Of a DNA stretch of 64,000 bases, positions 3,971 through 55,131 are shown piece after piece (the stretch's first letter is position 1; each line of letters starts with the position of its first letter). The position numbers were made by a program, and so were the translations under genes. This DNA comes from Desulforegulaceae bacterium (GTDB taxonomy: Bacteria > Desulfobacterota > Desulfobacteria > Desulfobacterales > JACKCP01). The notes below the pieces were generated by a model that was not told where the DNA came from, ran no database searches, and saw nothing but the letters and a program-made list of their open reading frames with translations. The stretch is from assembly GCA_034006035.1 (NCBI GenBank), contig JAVETN010000006.1, forward strand, positions 62,001 through 126,000. Reading direction: 5' to 3'.

Positions 3971-4915
3971 CTATAGTTTGTTAAGATAGGTTTCAAATGC
4001 CTCAAGACCATTTTTGCCGTCTTTTGTTTTAACATTATTAAACCATGGACGATAAACTTCAGGATTTTTCTTAATCCAAGCTAAACCAGCTTGTTTAGGA
4101 GTCAGATTCTGATCCTTTTTAAGTGAATCCATTATTTCATTCATCATAGGAATGGGGAACTTTAAGTTTTTAAGGAAAGTTGCAGTATTAGGCTGTTCCT
4201 TATCAAAGCCTTTTCTTATATTTGTATAAACAACAGCTGTACCATTATTTGGGCCAAAGGTATCAGGGGTTGAACCTGTAAGATAGGTCATATCAATAAC
4301 TTCATTCATATAATGAGGAGACCATCCTAAAAACACCACCCATTTTTTTGTTTTTGTATAAGACCTTACCTGGGAAAGCATTCCAGCCTCACTTGAAGGG
4401 ATCAGCTCAAAACCTTTAAGATTAAACATATTTTTATCAATCATGGTCTGAATCACAAGATTTCCGTCGTTTCCTTCTTCAATTCCATAAATTCTTCCAT
4501 CAAGCTTATCTTTAAACTTTGCTATATCTGAAAAATCTTTAAGACCGCCTTCAGCAGCATAAGTTGGAACTGCCAAAGTGTATTTGGCTCCGGGCATATT
4601 TGCAACAAAATTTACAACTGTTCCTCTGTCAAAATATCTTTCAGCAATATTTGTCATTGAAGGATACCAGTATCCAAGAAAAACATCAGCATCACCTGTT
4701 TCAAGTGCCTTGTATGCTATAGGCACAGAAACCATTAGATTTGAAGCCTTATAACCAAGGTTGTTAAGAATAGTTACTGAAAGTTCTGTTTTTACAGTTA
4801 TTCCTGTCCAACTTGTGCTTACAAACCTGATTTCATCTTTTGCATAAACAGATCCTGCAAAAACAAAAGAGAAAATCATAAAAAATACCAGCCACGTTTT
4901 TTTTAAATTAAACAT
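3971..4915 (-). CDS. Choline/glycine-betaine ABC transporter substrate-binding protein (ProX/ChoX type)
   Basis: This 314-residue periplasmic solute-binding protein starts with a clear signal peptide, with likely cleavage after VYA at residue 25. The mature part has the OpuAC fold signatures: SWTG near residue 34 (Trp36) and GYWYPS near 81-86. These supply the aromatic cage that holds a quaternary ammonium group in this family. The gene is last in the operon, 83 bases after betB, so it probably delivers choline to the BetA/BetB pathway. No permease or ATPase gene accompanies it in the window, so its membrane partners must be elsewhere. Choline versus betaine preference is inferred from context. 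Confidence 0.88.
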   Translation of the reverse strand: MFNLKKTWLVFFMIFSFVFAGSVYAKDEIRFVSTSWTGITVKTELSVTILNNLGYKASNLMVSVPIAYKALETGDADVFLGYWYPSMTNIAERYFDRGTVVNFVANMPGAKYTLAVPTYAAEGGLKDFSDIAKFKDKLDGRIYGIEEGNDGNLVIQTMIDKNMFNLKGFELIPSSEAGMLSQVRSYTKTKKWVVFLGWSPHYMNEVIDMTYLTGSTPDTFGPNNGTAVVYTNIRKGFDKEQPNTATFLKNLKFPIPMMNEIMDSLKKDQNLTPKQAGLAWIKKNPEVYRPWFNNVKTKDGKNGLEAFETYLNKL

Positions 4916-4998
4916 AAAAACTCCTTATTTTTTATTAACTAATTTGATTAAAAACATTTAACCGAAATAAACCGGATATCAAACAACTTTTTAACAAC

Positions 4999-6477
4999 TT
5001 ATTTAAATTTGCCAAACCAGTTCATTGGCTTATTTTGATAATTTTGGAAAACATGCTTGAGTTCGCAATACTCATGGAATCCCTCAAGTCCAAGTTCTCT
5101 TCCTATTCCAGATTGCTTATACCCTCCCCAAGGAGCTCTTGGGTAATATACATTGAAATCATTTATCCAAATTGTTCCAAACCTTAATCCTTTTGAAAAT
5201 TTTTCAATTCTTGAAGGTGAATTTGTCCAAAATCCTGCAGAAAGTCCATATTTTGTATCATTGGCAAGTTTTAAAGCTTCATCATCAGAAGAAAATTTTT
5301 CAACAGTAATTACAGGACCAAAACTTTCTTCTTTTACAATTTTCATTTCTGCTTTGCAGTTTGTAAAAAGAGTGGGAAGGTAGAAAAATCCTTTTTTTAA
5401 TTTTTCATCATCCGGTCTTTTTCCACCTGTTTCCAGGATTGCCCCTTCTTTTAAAGCAAGACTTACATAGTTTTCTATTTTTTCTCTGTGCTCTTCTGAA
5501 ATAAGCGGACCCATTTCAGTTGATTCATCAAACCCGTTTCCAATTTTTATTTTTTCAATCCGATTTTTAAGCTCTAAAACAAATTTATCATGGATTTTAT
5601 CTTCAACCATCAGTCTTGCCCCTGCTGAGCAAATCTGGCCAGCATGGAAAAACACAGCATTTAGAGCAAAATCAAGAGCTGTTTCAAAATCACAATCTGA
5701 AAAAACTATATTGGGATTTTTTCCCCCAAGCTCCAAAGCAATCTTTTTCAAACTGCTAGCAGCTGACTGCATTATGATTTTTCCTGTTTCAATCCCTCCT
5801 GTAAAAGAGATGAGATCAACATCTAAAGACTTGGCAAGCTCTGAACCCACTTTGTTTCCAGTACCTAAAACAAGATTTACAACACCTGGAGGAATTCCTG
5901 CTTCCTCTGCAAGCTCAGTTATTTTTATTGTGGTAAGAGGGGTAATTTCACTTGGTTTCATTACAATAGTGCATCCGGCTGCAAGTGATGGGGCCATTTT
6001 CCATGAAGCTTGTAAAAGAGGGTAATTCCAGGGTGAAATCTGCCCACAAACCCCAACAGGTTCATACACAGCTTTACTTGATGTATCCGGGAAAGGAGAA
6101 TCTATAATATAGCCTTTGTTTTCCTCTGCTATGGACGAATAATATTTAAAAACATCTGCAATTCCGTCCATATCCCAGCGGCTTTCTTCAACTGTTTTAC
6201 CTGTATCCAGACTTTCAAGTCGTGAAAGCTCTTCATGATCCCGAAGAATTAATTCATGAATTTTATGAAGATACTCTCCTCGTTTAGCTCCTGAAAGACT
6301 TGACCAGATACCTGAATCAAAAGCTTGTCTTGCGGCTTTTATTGCTTTTACACTATCCCTTTCATCTCCTTCAGCAACTTTTGCTATCACACTTTGATCA
6401 AAGGGATTTATAATTTTCCTTGTTCCTCCGGACTCTGATTCAACCCATTTTCCGTTTATGAACATTTTTTTAAACAT
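4999..6477 (-). CDS. betB: Betaine aldehyde dehydrogenase
   Basis: This is a 492-residue cytosolic NAD(P)-dependent aldehyde dehydrogenase that oxidises betaine aldehyde to glycine betaine. The oxyanion-hole motif SPWNYPL is at 148-154, the general base Glu249 lies in LELGGKNP, and the nucleophile Cys283 lies in GQICSAG. The length is normal for the family. It starts 11 bases after the betA stop, and its position between betA and a choline-binding protein is the main reason for the substrate call. Without that context it would simply be called an ALDH-superfamily enzyme. Confidence 0.92.
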   Translation of the reverse strand: MFKKMFINGKWVESESGGTRKIINPFDQSVIAKVAEGDERDSVKAIKAARQAFDSGIWSSLSGAKRGEYLHKIHELILRDHEELSRLESLDTGKTVEESRWDMDGIADVFKYYSSIAEENKGYIIDSPFPDTSSKAVYEPVGVCGQISPWNYPLLQASWKMAPSLAAGCTIVMKPSEITPLTTIKITELAEEAGIPPGVVNLVLGTGNKVGSELAKSLDVDLISFTGGIETGKIIMQSAASSLKKIALELGGKNPNIVFSDCDFETALDFALNAVFFHAGQICSAGARLMVEDKIHDKFVLELKNRIEKIKIGNGFDESTEMGPLISEEHREKIENYVSLALKEGAILETGGKRPDDEKLKKGFFYLPTLFTNCKAEMKIVKEESFGPVITVEKFSSDDEALKLANDTKYGLSAGFWTNSPSRIEKFSKGLRFGTIWINDFNVYYPRAPWGGYKQSGIGRELGLEGFHEYCELKHVFQNYQNKPMNWFGKFK

Positions 6478-6488
6478 AAAACTTCCTT

Positions 6489-8141
6489 TTATTGTTTTTC
6501 GTGCTTGTAAAAAGGTACTTTTTCAGCGGGAAGAGGTTTTTTCCCAAGAATCATATCTGCAGCTTTTTCTGCAATCATCATTACAGGTCCATAAATATTT
6601 CCATTGGGAATAAGTGGCATTACCGAAGCATCAACAACTCTTAAATTTTCAACTCCATGAACTTTGAGTTCAGAGTCAACAACAGCCATCTCATCATAAC
6701 CCATTTTACAGGTACAACTTGGGTGATATGCACTTTCACCTTCTCTGGCAACAAAATCAAGAATCTGTTCATCTGTCTGGGAATCAACTCCTGGTGCAAG
6801 CTCTTTTCCTCTAAGCTCGTCAAATGCTGACTGATTTGCGATTTCTCTTGTCTTTCTTATAGCTTCAACCCACTCTTTTCTTTCCTGCTCAGTTGAAAGA
6901 TAATTAAAAAGAATTGAGGGATATTGATCAGGATTTTTCGACTTGATTTTAACATGACCTCTTACATCTGTATTCATTGGTCCCACATGAAACTGGAATC
7001 CATGGCCTTCCTGTGGAGCTGAACCATCATAGCGGATTGCAATTGGAAGAAAATGATACTGAAGGTTGGGGTATTTAACTTCATCATTTCCTCTTATAAA
7101 TCCACCTGCCTCAAAATGATTTGTTGCAGCAGCACCTTTTCTTTGAAAAAGCCATTGAGCACCTATAAAAGGCTGTCTATACCATTTAAGTGCCGGAAAC
7201 ATGCTAACAGGTTTTTTACATGCATATTGAACATAAAGCTCAAGATGATCCTGAAGATTTTCGCCAACACCTTTAAGATCCTTTACCACATCAATTCCAA
7301 GATCTTTCAGTTCTTCTCCGTTTCCAATTCCTGAAAGCTGTAATAACTGAGGTGAATTTATTGCTCCTCCGCAGCTGATAATCTCTTTTCCGTAAACCTT
7401 TTGTTGATTTTTTCCTTTTACATTAAACTCAACCCCAACAGCTTTATTTCCCTCAAAAAGAATTCTTGAAGCCTTGGCAAAACATTGTATTTTTAGATTT
7501 GTTCTCTCTTTTTTGACAGGATGAATATATGCCCTTGCTGCATTATATCTTCTTCCCCTGTAAATATTTTGGTCAAACTTTGAAAAACCTTCTTGTTGGT
7601 AGCCGTTAACATCTTCTGTCAAGGGGTAACCTGCCTGCTGGACAGCTTCAAAAAAAGCATCAAAAAGAGGATTTTCACACTTTGCAGTTGAAATTTTAAG
7701 TGGCCCTTTATCTCCGTGATAGAGATTTGCACCCACAAGCCTTGTTTCAAATTTTTTAAAATAAGGAAGGCATTGAAAATAACTCCAGTCTTCAAGCCCT
7801 TCTATTCTTGACCATTTTTCATAATCCATTGCGTTGCCGCGTATATAAATCATTCCGTTTATTGTACTGGAGCCGCCAAGAACTTTTCCCCTTGGCTGAT
7901 AAATTCTTCTATTATTCATAAATGGTTCAGGATCAGATTCATACCACCAATTATAAAATCTTCCCTGTAAAGGATAGGTAAGAGCAGCCGGCATATGGAT
8001 CCTGAAATCAAGCTTATAATCAGGTCTTCCAGCTTCAAGCACAAGAACCTTATTTGATGGATCTTTGCTAAGCCTGTTTGCCAGCACACTTCCGGCTGAG
8101 CCTCCTCCAATTATTATATAATCATAGTTTGTCTTTCCCAT
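6489..8141 (-). CDS. betA: Choline dehydrogenase (GMC flavoprotein)
   Basis: This 550-residue FAD-dependent glucose-methanol-choline oxidoreductase catalyses choline to betaine aldehyde and can often take a second oxidation step. The ADP-binding motif GGGSAGSVLANRLS is near residue 12, the GMC signature GGSSTING lies near residue 90, and the active-site pair is His473 (YHPSCTCKMG) and Asn515 (PNGN). The start ATG lies inside the end of the upstream regulator gene (20-base overlap), so the two are probably translationally coupled. In a strict anaerobe the electrons must go to a quinone or another carrier rather than to oxygen. Confidence 0.93.
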   Translation of the reverse strand: MGKTNYDYIIIGGGSAGSVLANRLSKDPSNKVLVLEAGRPDYKLDFRIHMPAALTYPLQGRFYNWWYESDPEPFMNNRRIYQPRGKVLGGSSTINGMIYIRGNAMDYEKWSRIEGLEDWSYFQCLPYFKKFETRLVGANLYHGDKGPLKISTAKCENPLFDAFFEAVQQAGYPLTEDVNGYQQEGFSKFDQNIYRGRRYNAARAYIHPVKKERTNLKIQCFAKASRILFEGNKAVGVEFNVKGKNQQKVYGKEIISCGGAINSPQLLQLSGIGNGEELKDLGIDVVKDLKGVGENLQDHLELYVQYACKKPVSMFPALKWYRQPFIGAQWLFQRKGAAATNHFEAGGFIRGNDEVKYPNLQYHFLPIAIRYDGSAPQEGHGFQFHVGPMNTDVRGHVKIKSKNPDQYPSILFNYLSTEQERKEWVEAIRKTREIANQSAFDELRGKELAPGVDSQTDEQILDFVAREGESAYHPSCTCKMGYDEMAVVDSELKVHGVENLRVVDASVMPLIPNGNIYGPVMMIAEKAADMILGKKPLPAEKVPFYKHEKQ

Positions 8142-48351: not shown

Positions 48352-49692
48352 TCAGTTGGTGCAGCTTCTAAGTATATCTAACTTTTTTTCCTTGAACTCA
48401 TTATGCTTTTTTTCAAAAAAGAATTCTTTTTCACCAAAAGCTGGCTCTAATTCATCTATCCATGAGGCATCTTTGTTGAATTTTGCAAAAAAAACCTTAT
48501 TTACATGTTCTTTAATTCTTGACTGTACAAATTTTAAAACATAAACTTTTTCACCTTTTATTTCAGTGATATCCTCAACAAGAATTTTACCAATTTCGGC
48601 TGACATAGAAGGACCGCGTACAGTTCTTGCCAATCCTGAAACATTTCTATAGGCTTGGGTAAAAATTTCAAAAGCCTTAGCAAGAGAAATTTCAAAATAT
48701 TTTTTCGACCCTGTGTCCCTTCCAACAAACATATAATATGGGATTGTGCCAAGCTTTAATTGACCCTTCCACATTCTTTCCCAAACATAACTATTGTCGT
48801 TTATATTTTTTATCAAGGGAGCCTGGCATCTTATCTGGGCTCCTACTGACTTTAGTCTTTTAACTGCTTTTTCAACGGCAGGAGTTTCAAGTTCTCTATA
48901 ATGGGAAAAATGAGCCATAATTGCGAGATGGTAACCTTTGTTTGTTATTTTTTCAAAAAGCCTCATTAAGTCATCTGAATCTTTATCCCGATAAAATCTA
49001 AAGGGCCAGTTTGCCAGAGCTTTTGTTCCAAATCTTATATTAAGAAGATTTTCAGGTTTTTCCTTTAAAAAAGGTTCAATATATTTTTCAAGAACAGATG
49101 TTTTCATAACCATGGGATCCCCTCCTGTAAACAAAAGATCTGTTACCATGGGATTTGTTTTTATATATTTATGAAGACTTTCTCTTTCACTCGATGAAAA
49201 TTTAAATTTCTGAAATCCTATAAATTGAGCCCATCTAAAACAATAGGTGCAATAACTATGACAAAACTGACCCTGAGTTGGGAAAAAAAGAACAGTTTCA
49301 TCGTATTTATGCTGCATTCCTTGAAGAATTGTCTTATCCATAACCGGAACGTTTAAATCCATTTGTCCTGCAGGGTGAGGATTCATGCCTAAATGAATTT
49401 TTCTTACCTGCTCTTTAAATACATCCATTTCACCGTTTAAATACAACAATTTCAGTTGGTTATAGTTATCATCACCTATCATCCCCGGCTGGGGAAATGT
49501 CAACTGGAAAATTGGATCATCTGGAGCATTATTCCAGTCAATGAGTTCATCAAGAACATAACTGCTAACCCTAAAAGGAATTATATTAGCACAGATTTCA
49601 ATTTCTTCTTTTATTTCAGGTGCCAGCTTATCGAGGTATTTGATTTTATTTAAAAAATTTTTATTGTAAAATTGAAAATTGAGTTTATCCAT
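48352..49692 (-). CDS. KamA-family radical SAM protein (lysine 2,3-aminomutase-like)
   Basis: This is a 446-residue enzyme. The radical SAM cluster is held by CHSYCTYC (C144, C148, C151). HPAGQMDLNVP near 106-116 is the KamA signature, and LFTGGDPMV provides SAM contacts. KamA relatives interconvert alpha- and beta-amino acids with PLP. I cannot point to a secure PLP lysine, so the reaction is open: lysine 2,3-aminomutase (compatible-solute N-acetyl-beta-lysine route), another amino acid, or a non-mutase activity. A perfect AGGAGG ribosome site precedes the ATG. No acetyltransferase is adjacent. Confidence 0.82.
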   Translation of the reverse strand: MDKLNFQFYNKNFLNKIKYLDKLAPEIKEEIEICANIIPFRVSSYVLDELIDWNNAPDDPIFQLTFPQPGMIGDDNYNQLKLLYLNGEMDVFKEQVRKIHLGMNPHPAGQMDLNVPVMDKTILQGMQHKYDETVLFFPTQGQFCHSYCTYCFRWAQFIGFQKFKFSSSERESLHKYIKTNPMVTDLLFTGGDPMVMKTSVLEKYIEPFLKEKPENLLNIRFGTKALANWPFRFYRDKDSDDLMRLFEKITNKGYHLAIMAHFSHYRELETPAVEKAVKRLKSVGAQIRCQAPLIKNINDNSYVWERMWKGQLKLGTIPYYMFVGRDTGSKKYFEISLAKAFEIFTQAYRNVSGLARTVRGPSMSAEIGKILVEDITEIKGEKVYVLKFVQSRIKEHVNKVFFAKFNKDASWIDELEPAFGEKEFFFEKKHNEFKEKKLDILRSCTN

Positions 49693-50362
49693 TGTGCCTC
49701 CTTGAATATTTCTAATTTTAGAAAAATCTAAACGCGAGATTTAAGTTTTGTTTGTAGGGTGAACGAAAGATATGAGAGTTTAATTGATTTGTCAAACAAA
49801 GACAAACACCAAATTCTTTTAAAACAATGAGTTATACAATTAAACAACTAGAATTTATTTTTATTTAAGACTTAAATAAAAGTATAAACCTGGTGTTTAA
49901 AAAATTTTTTAAAAAAACAACTTAATGCCAGGAGAGCAAACAAAGAGAAAATCAAAGCACTTAAGCATTAAACAACTTTGACTTTAAAGGGGGTTCTTTT
50001 TAATTACAGCCTTTTTTATCAGACCCATCTTGATAAAATTATTTCCTTCAGATGAGAGGTACAGCAAAGCAAAAATGGTTAAAATTTAACCTGGGGATAA
50101 TTGAGATTGAAAATATTTTCTTACAATATCAAATTGAAGCACCCCCAAGATAAGCTTGCAAAATAAGACGGCGACCATAAAATGTTTTTCTAAAACAAAA
50201 AGGGTTAGCTTACTTGTCCGAATAGAAAAAATCGGCTAAAAAAGATGCAATATATTGCTAATCTAGATATAAAACATCTTTGAAATATTCTTGCGGGCAA
50301 ACAAACCGTTAAAGCTTGTGGAAATTTTCCAACAGCAAGTCTATGAACCAAAAATCACCCTA
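49693..50362. other. Long intergenic region with palindromes, no gene seen
   Basis: This 670-base gap between two minus-strand genes is the longest in the window. Near the KamA-type gene it is AT-rich and holds a perfect palindrome (49859-49881). TTTTATCA (50014-50021) pairs with TGATAAAA (50031-50038). Just after the AOR-like gene a nested hairpin (TGGAAA 50319-50324 with TTTCCA 50326-50331, and CTTGC 50290-50294 with GCAAG 50335-50339) may be that operon's terminator, although no U-run follows. About 50080-50340 is somewhat richer in G+C but all frames are broken, which suggests decayed coding DNA. Confidence 0.45.
49859..49881. promoter_or_regulatory. Perfect AT-rich palindrome upstream of the KamA-type gene
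   Basis: Arms of 11 bases, TTTTATTTAAG and CTTAAATAAAA, flank a single base 167 bases before the start codon. The symmetry suggests a dimeric regulator site or a hairpin in the leader. In AT-rich DNA such symmetry is easier to get by chance, so confidence is limited. Confidence 0.35.
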
Positions 50363-51991
50363 TTAAATCTGAGATCCTCTTCCTTTTAAAACATCTTTTT
50401 TCCCTAAAGAGTATTCCCGTATGTTCATATTTTTTTCAAGCTTATGGATTCTTTCACCCGCTTTTAAAAAATCCTTTCTTGACAACTTTATTCCTGTTAA
50501 AGCTGTAAAAAGTTTGGAATAAAGGCTGAAGTTAACAAGGGAAATTGCAAGGGCTGGAAACCTTTTCACAAAAATATTCAAAGTTAATTTAGGACAATAT
50601 TTCAACAAAACGGGATTACGAGCATAGAAATAGGATGTAAAACAGCAGATACCAAGTGAATTTACAGCACAAAAAACATTTTCAAATAATTTAATAAAGC
50701 CAGGTTGTGACCTAAGATTATCAATCTTTAAAAGTCTAAAAAAAGAATCAATTGCAATCTCATAAAAAGAAAAACTAAAGGACCCGCTATTTAGATCATG
50801 AAAATCAATTTGAGAATCAGGCAAAGCCTCGTTCATAAAAGCATCCATTTCCCTTATTTTCATCTTAGTTGTAAAATCTTCCTGGTTGTATTGCCTTAAA
50901 AGCTCTTCTAAACCAAGACCTGCTTTTACTCCTTCACCTCTTGAATATGCAATCTCATATAAAAAATCCTCTATCCCTTTATAGGATTCAGTTTTCACCT
51001 GAAAATCAAGGCCACACTTTTCTGAACTTCCCATTATCCAGCCAATAGTTCTTCCTGCTAAAATTGTATCCATCCCCATTTTTGAACAGATTTCATTAAA
51101 CTTAGCCGTTATGCTTGAGTCTGAAGTTTTAAGGTTTGTGCCAATAACTGAAGCTGCTCCAAGTTCAATCAGGCTTTTTTTGTCCTCAGATGAAACTTTA
51201 TAAGGTTTTCGTTTTGTAAATATTTCACTGAAAATTTCGCCTAAATCAGAAGAAGATTCAGGCTTAAAACTTTTAAAAAGATATGAACCGGCTTGGTTTT
51301 GATTAGTATATTTATTTGCTTTTTTTCTAAGTTTATTAAGCTTTTTCTTATTTGCAGGAAGAATTTTATAATCTCCGCCTTTTACAACAACTCCTTTTAA
51401 ATTTTTTGAACCCATTACAGCACCAAGGCCTTCTTTTCCAAAAAAGCTATTCCCTGATCTAATATTTGCAAACTTTACCCCGTTTTCACCTGCTGGTCCA
51501 ATCACAAGGGCGGCTTCGTTTTTACCTTTTACAAGTTTTTCCTGGGACTTTTTTGTGCTAAACCCCCAAATAGCTTCTCCATCTTCAAAGTAAGCACCAT
51601 TTTTATCAATTTTTAAGATTATATGCTTTCTACTTCTTCCTTTGATTATCAAACCATCCCATCCTGCTGTTCTAAGCTGAACTCCAAAAGAACCGTTGCA
51701 GAATGAAGAATTAAACAAATTTGTAAGAGGAGATTTGGCAACTGAATAAAACCACCCAGAACAGCCTCCTTTTGCATCCGTTAAAATACCAGGGACAATT
51801 GAGAGGATGTTTTTTTCGCTAAGAGGATCAATCCCTGGATTTATTCTGTCAAACAACAACTTTAACCCTAAACCTTTTGCTCCAATATAGAGTTTTCTTT
51901 CCTCCCTTGAAACCTCAAAAACATTCCAGGTTCTTGAAGATAAATCAACTTCAAGAACTTTATTTGAAATTCCAATATTTTTTTTAGCCAT
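50363..51991 (-). CDS. Aldehyde:ferredoxin oxidoreductase-family protein without its Fe-S cysteines
   Basis: This is a 542-residue protein. The N-terminal tungstopterin domain is recognisable (EVDLSSRTW; KSPLTNLFNSSFCNG; GWDGLIIKGRS; GPAGEN; GKEGLGAVMGSKNLKGVVVKGG at 185-206). The CxxCxxxC triad expected about residues 240-290 is absent, and there is no cysteine between 98 and 302. The later acidic and His-containing pterin contacts are also altered (MKIREMDAFMNE in place of the Glu-Leu-x-x-Tyr-Asp-Pro-Arg stretch). The protein is about 60 residues shorter than the usual 600. It is probably non-canonical or inactive as an AOR. It follows the iron alcohol dehydrogenase gene by 19 bases. Confidence 0.85.
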   Translation of the reverse strand: MAKKNIGISNKVLEVDLSSRTWNVFEVSREERKLYIGAKGLGLKLLFDRINPGIDPLSEKNILSIVPGILTDAKGGCSGWFYSVAKSPLTNLFNSSFCNGSFGVQLRTAGWDGLIIKGRSRKHIILKIDKNGAYFEDGEAIWGFSTKKSQEKLVKGKNEAALVIGPAGENGVKFANIRSGNSFFGKEGLGAVMGSKNLKGVVVKGGDYKILPANKKKLNKLRKKANKYTNQNQAGSYLFKSFKPESSSDLGEIFSEIFTKRKPYKVSSEDKKSLIELGAASVIGTNLKTSDSSITAKFNEICSKMGMDTILAGRTIGWIMGSSEKCGLDFQVKTESYKGIEDFLYEIAYSRGEGVKAGLGLEELLRQYNQEDFTTKMKIREMDAFMNEALPDSQIDFHDLNSGSFSFSFYEIAIDSFFRLLKIDNLRSQPGFIKLFENVFCAVNSLGICCFTSYFYARNPVLLKYCPKLTLNIFVKRFPALAISLVNFSLYSKLFTALTGIKLSRKDFLKAGERIHKLEKNMNIREYSLGKKDVLKGRGSQI

Positions 51992-52010: not shown

Positions 52011-53192
52011 TTAAAATGCTTTTTTCAAAATTCCCATTGCATCTTCATGACTCATCTCCTCTGGATTCATCATCAAGGCACCGTCATTTATTGTCTTTGT
52101 TGCAATACTTTCAAACATGTCTTCTGTTACGCCAGCTTCTTTCAATCTCATTGGAAGAGATGCTTTTTCATTGAGCTTTCTTTGTAAATTTCTCAAATTT
52201 TCAATAAATTTAAAAGCTCTGTTTTCCTTTGAAGTATTTGAATAAATTTCAGGGCCGGAAAGAGGCAAAAGAAGCTCACTTAAACTGTCTTTGATTTTTT
52301 CAAAACTATATTCAAGCCCATAGGGAAGAAAGATAGACATTGCCACTCCATGTGGAACCTTTGCAACTGCACCTGTTGAATGACCAAGAGCATGAATTCC
52401 GCCAACCATTGAATTTGAAAATGCAATTCCTGCCATAGTTGCAGCATTTGCCATATTGAGCCTGGCTTTACGATCCTTCCCGTTTTCCACAGCAGCCAAA
52501 ATATTTTCACTTATAATCCTTATTGCTGAAAAAGCATAGGCATCACTTATGGGATTTTTCTGTAAACATGTATAAGCCTCTATTGCGTGGGTTAAAGCGT
52601 CCATCCCAGTTGCAGCTGTAATTTTAGGAGGCATTGTTTCTGTCATTCTAGGATCAATAACTGCAAGGTTGGGAAGAAGGTAGTCTGAAATAAATTCCAT
52701 TTTAACTTTTTTTTCTTCATTATAAATAACAGCGACAAGAGTAGCTTCTGATCCTGTTCCCGCCGTTGTAGGAACAACTATCAAAGGTTTTAAAGGTTTT
52801 TTAAGTAAGTCTGTACCTTCGAATTCCATCAAGTCATCGGAGTTTTCAGTTACAAGAATATTAGCCCCCTTGGCAGTGTCAATTGGAGAACCTCCCCCCA
52901 CCGCAATTAAGGAATCACATTTTTTTTCTCTGTAAACCCTTGCAATATCTTTAACAACTGAATTTGAAGAATCAGGAGGAACATCCGAATAGATCCCGCC
53001 TATTTCAACACCGCTGTTTTTAAAAGAGTTTATAAAAACTTTAATTAATCCTGCATTTTCAACACCCTTATCTGTAACTACAAGAGGACGCTTTGAGTTT
53101 AAAAGTTCAAGTTCATAGGGAAGGTTGTCTAACGCTTTGTTTCCAGATATTATTTTTACCGGATTATAAAACTGATAGTATGATGGAAGCAT
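52011..53192 (-). CDS. Iron-containing alcohol dehydrogenase
   Basis: This is a 393-residue group III alcohol dehydrogenase. The NAD(P) motif VGGGSPIDTAKG is near 98-109. Metal ligands are Asp and His in ATGMDALTHAIEAY, plus two histidines in GGIHALGHSTGA and KVPHG, all present. It is probably a cytosolic enzyme that interconverts aldehydes and primary alcohols. Operon position just before an AOR-family gene suggests aldehyde/alcohol handling, although that partner lacks key residues. Confidence 0.93.
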   Translation of the reverse strand: MLPSYYQFYNPVKIISGNKALDNLPYELELLNSKRPLVVTDKGVENAGLIKVFINSFKNSGVEIGGIYSDVPPDSSNSVVKDIARVYREKKCDSLIAVGGGSPIDTAKGANILVTENSDDLMEFEGTDLLKKPLKPLIVVPTTAGTGSEATLVAVIYNEEKKVKMEFISDYLLPNLAVIDPRMTETMPPKITAATGMDALTHAIEAYTCLQKNPISDAYAFSAIRIISENILAAVENGKDRKARLNMANAATMAGIAFSNSMVGGIHALGHSTGAVAKVPHGVAMSIFLPYGLEYSFEKIKDSLSELLLPLSGPEIYSNTSKENRAFKFIENLRNLQRKLNEKASLPMRLKEAGVTEDMFESIATKTINDGALMMNPEEMSHEDAMGILKKAF

Positions 53193-53261: not shown

Positions 53262-53786
53262 TTAACAACCCCTAACCAGCCCTATTGTATAAAAATAGAG
53301 TCTTTTTGACATTCTTTTCGAAAAGCTTATTTTCGGGATTCTCCTCATTAGATTTTTACAAAGAAAATCAGGGTAAAGATAGGCAAGAATTCTGTTTAAA
53401 CACCTTGTAAATGACATTGCCTTGGCAACATCGCCAATTACAATAAACCTGCTTTCTGAAAAACCCTGGGGAACTCCCATTAAAGGAGTAAGAATAAGAA
53501 AAGCTGATTCTATATTTTTAAAATTTACTGATAAATTCGGTTTGTTTTCCTGATTTGAAGATGCCTTTAAATTACCACTATTTTTTGTTAAAAAAAGTTT
53601 TGGCCCATGGGGAAGAACATTAAGTTCAAGTATAAACCCTTCCGGCCAGGCTCCAACCTCACCCATAATTTCATGATCATGCTTTGAAAATACCTGAAAA
53701 GCTCTTCCTAAAATCACCATTACAACTTTGCATACAGCGGTTTTAAACCATTTTCTGCCAGGTTTGTAACTTTTAAATTCTGACAT
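53262..53786 (-). CDS. SCP2-like lipid-binding protein (putative)
   Basis: This is a 174-residue protein of mixed alpha/beta character with a hydrophobic N-terminal helix (AVCKVVMVILGRAF). The middle part (LSVNFKNIESAFLILTP ... GVPQGFSESRFIVIGDVAKAM) reads like a sterol-carrier-protein-2-type binding fold; the C-terminal third is basic. It overlaps the TetR gene by 14 bases and precedes the alcohol dehydrogenase by 69 bases. A role in carrying an acyl or lipid substrate is inference from fold only. Confidence 0.6.
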   Translation of the reverse strand: MSEFKSYKPGRKWFKTAVCKVVMVILGRAFQVFSKHDHEIMGEVGAWPEGFILELNVLPHGPKLFLTKNSGNLKASSNQENKPNLSVNFKNIESAFLILTPLMGVPQGFSESRFIVIGDVAKAMSFTRCLNRILAYLYPDFLCKNLMRRIPKISFSKRMSKRLYFYTIGLVRGC

Positions 53787-54333
53787 CTTCTTCCCCCTTT
53801 GTGTTTTTAAACAAAATTTTGATTAACTCCACATATCTTTTGCTTGAAACTTCGTTTATGGAAAGCAGGTTCTGAATAACAAGTCCATCAACAGCCGCTA
53901 TAAAAAAACTTGCAAGAGCATCTGGATCTCTAAGATCTGGAACAACCTCATTCAAACCCCGGACAAGCATTTTTTTCCATCTCCCGTAAATATAACGAAA
54001 CTTGTCCAAAAGCTCTCCTTTTTCAGTTACAGCTTCACGAACTAAATAAATATGGAGCCTGCTCCTTGTTATTGAATCAGGCACTGTTTCAAAAAGTTTT
54101 CCAACTATTTCTTCAGGTGGATCGCCTGTGTTTAAAAGATTTAAAAGATTTTGAGTAATTTTTTCCATATGCATTTCAGTCACTGCAAAAACAAGATCGT
54201 TTTTAGTTGAAAAATGATAATACAAGGTTCCTTTGCTTATCTTTGCCTTTGAAGAAATTTCAGCCAGTGATGTTTTTTCCACACCTTTTTCAGTAAAAAG
54301 CTTTGAAGCAGATTTTATTATATTTTTTTTCAT
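53773..54333 (-). CDS. TetR-family regulator of the AOR-like/ADH cluster
   Basis: This is a 186-residue repressor with an N-terminal helix-turn-helix (ISKAKISKGTLYYHFSTK) and a helical ligand domain. An ATG 17 codons upstream exists, but the start at 54333 (MKKNIIKSASKLF) gives the usual family N-terminus. It also leaves the palindrome at 54346-54361 outside the coding part. The gene is coupled to the SCP2-like gene and likely controls the ADH/AOR-like operon and itself. The ligand is unknown; fatty acyl-CoA or aldehyde derivatives are possibilities. Confidence 0.87.
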   Translation of the reverse strand: MKKNIIKSASKLFTEKGVEKTSLAEISSKAKISKGTLYYHFSTKNDLVFAVTEMHMEKITQNLLNLLNTGDPPEEIVGKLFETVPDSITRSRLHIYLVREAVTEKGELLDKFRYIYGRWKKMLVRGLNEVVPDLRDPDALASFFIAAVDGLVIQNLLSINEVSSKRYVELIKILFKNTKGEEDVRI

Positions 54334-54345
54334 CAAACTATCCGT

Positions 54346-54361
54346 TCGGTCGGCTGACCGA
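54346..54361. promoter_or_regulatory. TetR-type operator palindrome
   Basis: TCGGTC and GACCGA form perfect six-base arms around four bases. The site stands out by G+C in AT-rich DNA. It lies 13 bases before the proposed start of the adjacent TetR gene, the expected place for an autoregulatory operator. Confidence 0.65.
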
Positions 54362-54471
54362 CATAAGGTTAAAAAACAAGGCATCTGAGTTTTTTTACAA
54401 ACGCCTTATTATTTGTGTATATAAAAATAAAAATTATTTCAGTCAAGAAAGAAGTTAAAAAAAGATAAAAT

Positions 54472-55131
54472 TTATCGTTTATCTCTCATTTCTTCTCTTA
54501 TTTGACTTAGATCTTTTTCCAGAATTTCCCGCCCAAGAGCATTTCCTTCTTTAATTATCAAAATTGCAAGCCTATGCATATACTCTCTTCTTTCTTCTTG
54601 GCTTCTTCCAGGATAATTCCTAAATGTAAGCACAACGCCAGCAAGGGACGCAAAAAAAGCATGGGTAAAAAACCTTATATTTGAAACACCTTCAGCCTTA
54701 TTAACTGCTTTATCAAACATATTGAGGAAATATCTTTGAACTGCGTTAAATTTCTTCAAAGCCCTTTGATTAACCTCACCTCTTATCATAAAATGGCACA
54801 TCATCTGGAAGGTTGATTCGTTATCTATAAGATAATCAACTACAGCTATTGCAAGTTCATCTAAAGTACCGCCAGCAGTTATTCTTTTTTCGAGCTCGCC
54901 TTCTATCTTATTTATATCCTGAATAAGGGCTTCTACAAACAAATCATCCCTGCTTGGAAAATATCTATAAATAGATGCGGCAGAAACCCCTGCTTCTGCT
55001 GCTATATCCCTCATTCCTATTTCATGGAAGGATCTTTCATCAAAAAGTGTCATGGCAGCAGAAATTATAAGCTGCTTTCTCACTTCTCTTTCATCCTCCC
55101 TAAGCTTCATAAAAGTTGACTGTTGAGTCAT
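54472..55131 (-). CDS. TetR-family regulator
   Basis: This is a 219-residue regulator with a typical HTH (MRDIAAEAGVSAASIYRYFPSRDDLF) near residues 40-65 and a helical ligand domain ending in a basic tail. It differs clearly from the neighbouring TetR protein, so it is not a recent duplicate. It is transcribed alone or reads into the TetR-SCP2 operon 138 bases downstream. A small inverted repeat at 55160-55177 before its start may be its own operator. Target unknown. Confidence 0.87.
   Translation of the reverse strand: MTQQSTFMKLREDEREVRKQLIISAAMTLFDERSFHEIGMRDIAAEAGVSAASIYRYFPSRDDLFVEALIQDINKIEGELEKRITAGGTLDELAIAVVDYLIDNESTFQMMCHFMIRGEVNQRALKKFNAVQRYFLNMFDKAVNKAEGVSNIRFFTHAFFASLAGVVLTFRNYPGRSQEERREYMHRLAILIIKEGNALGREILEKDLSQIREEMRDKR

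Follow-up and report, generated by a model that had tools for sequence, protein, structure and literature searches.

The NuoG (Nqo3) subunit of complex I, a member of the DMSO-reductase family, is an ancient and widespread relative of the molybdopterin enzymes that has lost its cofactor but remains in place as a structural component. Molybdoenzyme homologues in genomes without a complete Moco pathway have been recorded in 292 bacteria lacking nitrogenase and in 13 possessing it; no sequence feature was found that marks these orphan molybdoproteins, and whether they use a metal was left as an open question to which sequence gave no clue (PMC6147048). T243, E313, Y427 and H448, in the numbering of P. 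furiosus AOR (PfAOR), have been listed for most aldehyde-oxidizing members of the tungsten aldehyde:ferredoxin oxidoreductase (AOR) family (PMC13328260). In Desulfofundulus kuznetsovii an alcohol dehydrogenase (ADH) gene adjoins an AOR gene, and proteomics supports the oxidation of methanol by this pair (PMC10907483). The locus described below is comparable to that pair by gene arrangement alone: the AOR of D. kuznetsovii is taken as active, in contrast to the AOR-family protein considered here, which would be unable to carry the AOR cofactors. No report of an AOR pseudoenzyme turned up in a literature search.

The window, i.e., the whole 64,000-nucleotide stretch of DNA analyzed, carries this gene as the last of an operon, with the following features:

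50363–51991, minus strand: putative AOR-family pseudoenzyme, 542 aa (N-domain at residues ~7–210, degraded domains 2/3 at ~276–538)
52011–53192, minus strand: iron-containing alcohol dehydrogenase, 393 aa, with 56–64% identity to orthologues from relatives that have the full operon
53262–53786, minus strand: SCP2-like protein, 174 aa, whose copies in relatives adjoin AOR/ADH
53773–54384, minus strand: TetR-family regulator heading the ancestral operon, with 38–45% identity to the TetR of this operon in relatives
54472–55131, minus strand: second TetR, whose orthologues in relatives (55–57% identical) lie immediately upstream of another AOR copy

The order TetR/SCP2-like/Fe-ADH/AOR, with a gap of 19 nt between the ADH and AOR genes, was shared by the Desulfobacterales loci L060, L062, L067 and L080, and SCP2-like/ADH/AOR clusters recurred in other Desulfobacterales and in Spirochaetes. 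Judged by its place in the operon, the window AOR corresponds to the AOR usually found at the operon's end, as its orthologue and not as an extra paralogue. The conservation of the neighbors was assessed by the share of invariant residues kept. The ADH kept 137 of 148 (0.926, within the orthologue range of 0.914–0.987) and has intact metal ligands D198, H202, H267 and H281, the SCP2-like protein kept 24 of 31, which is a little low, and the AOR kept only 115 of 208 compared to 0.90–0.995 in its operon orthologues. Since the SCP2-like gene is also somewhat fast, part of the AOR divergence may be lineage-wide. The 174-aa SCP2-like protein itself had no Pfam match, while four of the seven members of its family matched Pfam SCP2 (best E 1.5e-4); this family accompanies ADH/AOR operons in several phyla. 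In L074 and L078 a single open frame holds both the AOR and, fused in frame to its C-terminus, the SCP2-like stretch, and open frames of 806–843 aa in several other genomes suggest that there may be more such fusions. The orthologues of the second TetR lie upstream of the different AOR copy in L066, L069, L071 and L100; that AOR is absent here, suggesting that another AOR gene was lost from the second-TetR locus.

The ORF at 50363–51991 is the single AOR-family gene in the host genome, a 2.64-Mb draft in 31 contigs with 97.7% completeness. It belongs to the AOR protein family by homology, both Pfam matches being above the gathering score: AFOR_N (PF02730) at residues 10–205 (E 7e-59, 199.3 bits, cut-off 29.8) and AFOR_C (PF01314) at residues 267–538 (E 1e-34, 120.6 bits, cut-off 27). 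The latter covered only positions 91–338 of the 385 in the profile, which identifies the triad region and the C-terminus as the missing parts. The protein has cysteines at residues 77, 98, 302, 326, 441, 449, 450 and 466, and therefore none between C98 and C302, exactly as the initial annotation had claimed together with the absence of the CxxCxxxC triad; in the alignments the triad segment is deleted around residues 235–275, and the C-terminal ~50 aa are also absent. Displaced cysteines or an out-of-frame remnant of the triad were ruled out: neither the other reading frames nor the 670 bp downstream contained remnants of the triad or of the AOR C-terminus. This downstream stretch (49693–50362), an AT-rich intergenic region with 29.7% GC, was likewise searched for an AOR remnant and none was detected.

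To locate the residues lost, the window protein and one close relative were aligned to 1AOR with HMMER and the PfAOR numbering was transferred, with the positions counted by script. The segment with C288/C291/C295 is deleted, not shifted, in the alignment with solved AORs and 32 close relatives, so that the cysteines are not displaced elsewhere, and of the [4Fe-4S] ligands only the fourth, C494, is kept as C449, together with three other cysteines of the subfamily. Changes in later pterin and active-site contacts, already suspected from the first inspection, proved to be wider than claimed: T243 falls in a deleted or unalignable segment, E313, Y427 and H448 are replaced by G278, F385 and S406, respectively, which makes all four lost, the YDPRG motif is gone (DPRG reads MNEA), and the C-terminal YYxxRG segment is missing. 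In the N-domain the pterin-pocket residues R76, N93, G95 and R182, which we take to contact the bis-pterin phosphates in 1AOR, are W80, F97, N99 and S182, and R186 is K186. As read from these positions, the ORF would not qualify as a functional tungsten AOR or Class I WOR, lacking the cluster ligands as well as the active-site and N-domain pterin residues. The window protein is thus very probably devoid of AOR chemistry, with its contacts to tungstopterin, its catalytic residues and its [4Fe-4S] triad all lost.

The nearest relatives, AORs of 620–650 aa with a CKPCxILC triad, come from Desulfobacterales and other phyla and are up to 58% identical in the N-domain alignment. They share with the window AOR the operon order of the ADH/SCP2-like operons of Desulfobacterales and Spirochaetes but, in contrast to it, all readable relatives keep the triad. 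In the 32-relative alignment the window protein kept 70 of 125 near-invariant columns, with 55 scattered residues changed or missing, while each of the relatives kept at least 96.9% in a leave-one-out comparison. Of the related loci, 160 had a readable triad region, and the CxxCxxxC motif was present in every one of them: 57/57 AOR loci of a first set, 74/74 readable out of 76 GTDB loci (the other two are fragments cut by contig ends) and 29/29 loci of the phylum sample; the three sets partly overlap, some GTDB records appearing to be the same genomes, and 160 is a number of loci, not of independent species. A shared triad loss was found neither among the best 30 loci taken from 389 Desulfobacterales genomes, nor in the 29 loci read in the phylum sample of 395 genomes, nor in the 74 readable GTDB loci. 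Since every relative with a readable triad region keeps it, chance was excluded as the cause of the loss. No relative of the same genus or family as the host was found among the genomes searched, and a scan of genome contigs with the window protein as the sole query gave no match. Two candidates for short AORs were rejected: G250, which resembled a short AOR in giving one uninterrupted match, carries CPGCPIKC, and the Azospirillum plasmid homologues, short only in the match, are full-length (annotated CDS of about 600 aa) with CFSCIISC.

The AlphaFold model of the window AOR, built with a 37-sequence alignment, had a mean pLDDT of 76.0, with values below 50 at residues 235–275, 373–418 and 530–542, compared to 94.2 in the intact relative L003 modeled with the same 37 sequences, where only residues 1–3 were below 50. 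The low confidence of the pocket segments fits the predicted loss of the active site, and by itself is no proof of disorder. Foldseek matches at E below 0.001 were exclusively to AOR-family structures (1AOR: E = 5.7e-27, TM-score about 0.79). The resemblance to the tungsten AOR family (1AOR, Class I WorL) consists of homology over nearly the whole length, the modeled fold and the kept C494, and the difference of the absent C288/C291/C295, T243/E313/Y427/H448, pterin-pocket residues and C-terminal segment. The N-domain, described as well preserved in the initial annotation, is so in its fold, with most of its blocks exceeding a pLDDT of 90 and 36 of its 43 near-invariant columns kept, compared to 34 of 70 aligned elsewhere (Fisher p = 2.7e-4), but not in its cofactor contacts.

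The genomic background of the host is in line with the state of the protein. MoaA (PF06463), MoaC (PF01967), MoaE (PF02391), MoeA_N (PF03453) and the molybdopterin oxidoreductases (PF00384) were all undetected in the 97.7% complete draft, while the search for each of these families was positive in 11 of 14 control genomes. MoaC was present in 50 of 58 relatives and in 42 of the 45 with good quality; in G040 it was undetected yet MoaA was present, showing that MoaC alone can be missed, and therefore the argument rests on the joint absence of the families. It appears that pyranopterin (Moco/Wco) synthesis was lost in the host lineage. The window AOR is an orphan molybdoprotein in the established sense, a homologue of Moco enzymes in a 97.7% complete draft with no Moco pathway found, albeit one in which, in contrast to the described cases, the ligand residues are plainly gone (PMC6147048). 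Aldehyde dehydrogenases are encoded by four strong Aldedh genes and one weaker, and a replacement of the AOR by an NAD-dependent one remained unsupported: the copy in the window is accompanied by a GMC oxidoreductase and OpuAC, which is more choline-to-betaine-like. These genes, encoding an OpuAC-type binding protein, an aldehyde dehydrogenase and a GMC oxidoreductase, lie in a row at 3971–8141 (minus strand) and look like a set for choline-to-betaine conversion and betaine uptake.

Our preferred interpretation, held with moderate confidence, is that of a cofactor-less AOR pseudoenzyme which arose after the loss of pterin synthesis and was probably retained as a non-catalytic partner. The ancestor would have been a tungsten-dependent AOR paired with the iron ADH and the SCP2-like protein, oxidizing alcohol via aldehyde to acid. 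The lineage would then have lost pyranopterin synthesis and the AOR its pterin contacts, catalytic residues and triad, presumably in this order, whereupon altered selection may have preserved the ORF as a protein partner without catalytic function. The likeliest partners would be the SCP2-like protein and the ADH, because some relatives carry SCP2 as a fusion with the AOR and the N-domain still present might provide a scaffold. As far as can be judged from sequence, maintenance by selection for a non-catalytic role has a somewhat better than even chance, and the more specific proposal of a true pseudoenzyme, free of tungstopterin and [4Fe-4S] and selected as a scaffold or regulator of an ADH/SCP2-like complex, falls slightly short of an even one. 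The suggestion in the initial annotation of a regulatory or structural paralogue next to an ADH held insofar as the operon link is real and ancestral and the pattern of the ORF does not fit simple neutral decay, but the protein is an orthologue and not an additional paralogue.

The main rival is a slowly decaying relic, for which function was lost after pterin synthesis and constraint relaxed, the ORF being still open either because the decay is recent or slow or because the gene is terminal in a translated operon. The triad loss seen in this genome but in none of the relatives sampled, the truncated C-terminus, the destroyed active site and the terminal position in the operon, where truncation costs the other genes little, speak in its favor. 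However, the ORF shows none of the stops, frameshifts or loss of coding signature that characterize a pseudogene: it has no premature stop, and its codon usage (0.244 per codon, neighbors 0.18–0.34) and GC by codon position are ordinary. Neutral evolution was simulated from the present sequence to 15% or 30% residue change in domains 2/3, without indels and with settings of our choice. Across the whole ORF the simulations accumulated 5.7–12.9 stops (11–13 at 30% change) and no run was stop-free, compared to zero stops observed, so that whole-gene neutrality is rejected under the settings used. For domains 2/3 only, 3–7% of the simulations were stop-free at 15% change and 0–1% at 30%; a shorter-lived relaxation of constraint confined to these domains keeps some probability. 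Erosion is significantly weaker in the N-domain than in the remainder, and the terminal branch of the window AOR had a length of 0.59 there, compared to 1.61 in domains 2/3 (medians of the other branches 0.18 and 0.14, respectively). Simple neutral decay is unlikely because of the absence of stops, the normal codon usage and the slower-evolving N-domain. A recently ended constraint would likewise leave the ORF without stops, which counts against the retention reading. The possibility raised at the outset, that the loss is unique and the gene decaying, was thus borne out for the uniqueness among the sampled genomes, but the gene is unlike an ordinary decaying pseudogene; overall, we regard a relic as rather unlikely.

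An active oxidoreductase without the cluster, performing a new chemistry with pterin or another cofactor, was the other possibility raised in the initial annotation and is disfavored. The AOR fold still matched overall and the retention of C449 with the three other subfamily cysteines would agree with it, but the pterin-synthesis genes were undetected, R76, N93, G95 and R182 were lost together with T243, E313, Y427, H448, YDPRG and the triad cysteines, and the pocket segments were modeled without confidence, which makes such an enzyme improbable. Slightly less probable still is an enzyme that works with pterin obtained from outside the cell or made by genes missing from the assembly: the assembly is a draft (97.7% complete, 31 contigs) and about 300 prokaryotes have orphan molybdoproteins of unresolved status (PMC6147048), but four pathway families and all molybdopterin oxidoreductases were undetected at once and the protein itself has no cofactor contacts. 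A chimera or frameshift errors, imaginable in a draft assembly, are hardly credible in view of one uninterrupted ORF of 542 aa, its native codon usage, a conserved operon order, 55 scattered changed or missing invariant residues and no out-of-frame remnants.

If the preferred interpretation of a retained, cofactor-less pseudoenzyme is true, the window AOR would be the AOR-family counterpart of NuoG, although in a different family and a single genome, and an orphan molybdoprotein whose sequence itself indicates that the cofactor is no longer used. It provides a clean case in which pathway loss and cofactor-residue loss coincide while the gene is still open. What becomes of an enzyme once its cofactor is lost can be tested directly on it, and it hints at a structural role, besides catalysis, of the AORs of this operon type with the ADH and the SCP2-like protein. 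Beyond the end of the AOR gene, at 48352–49692 (minus strand), a lone radical SAM protein of the KamA family (lysine 2,3-aminomutase-like), scoring below every subfamily cut-off, is encoded, flanked by the AOR and nuo operons.
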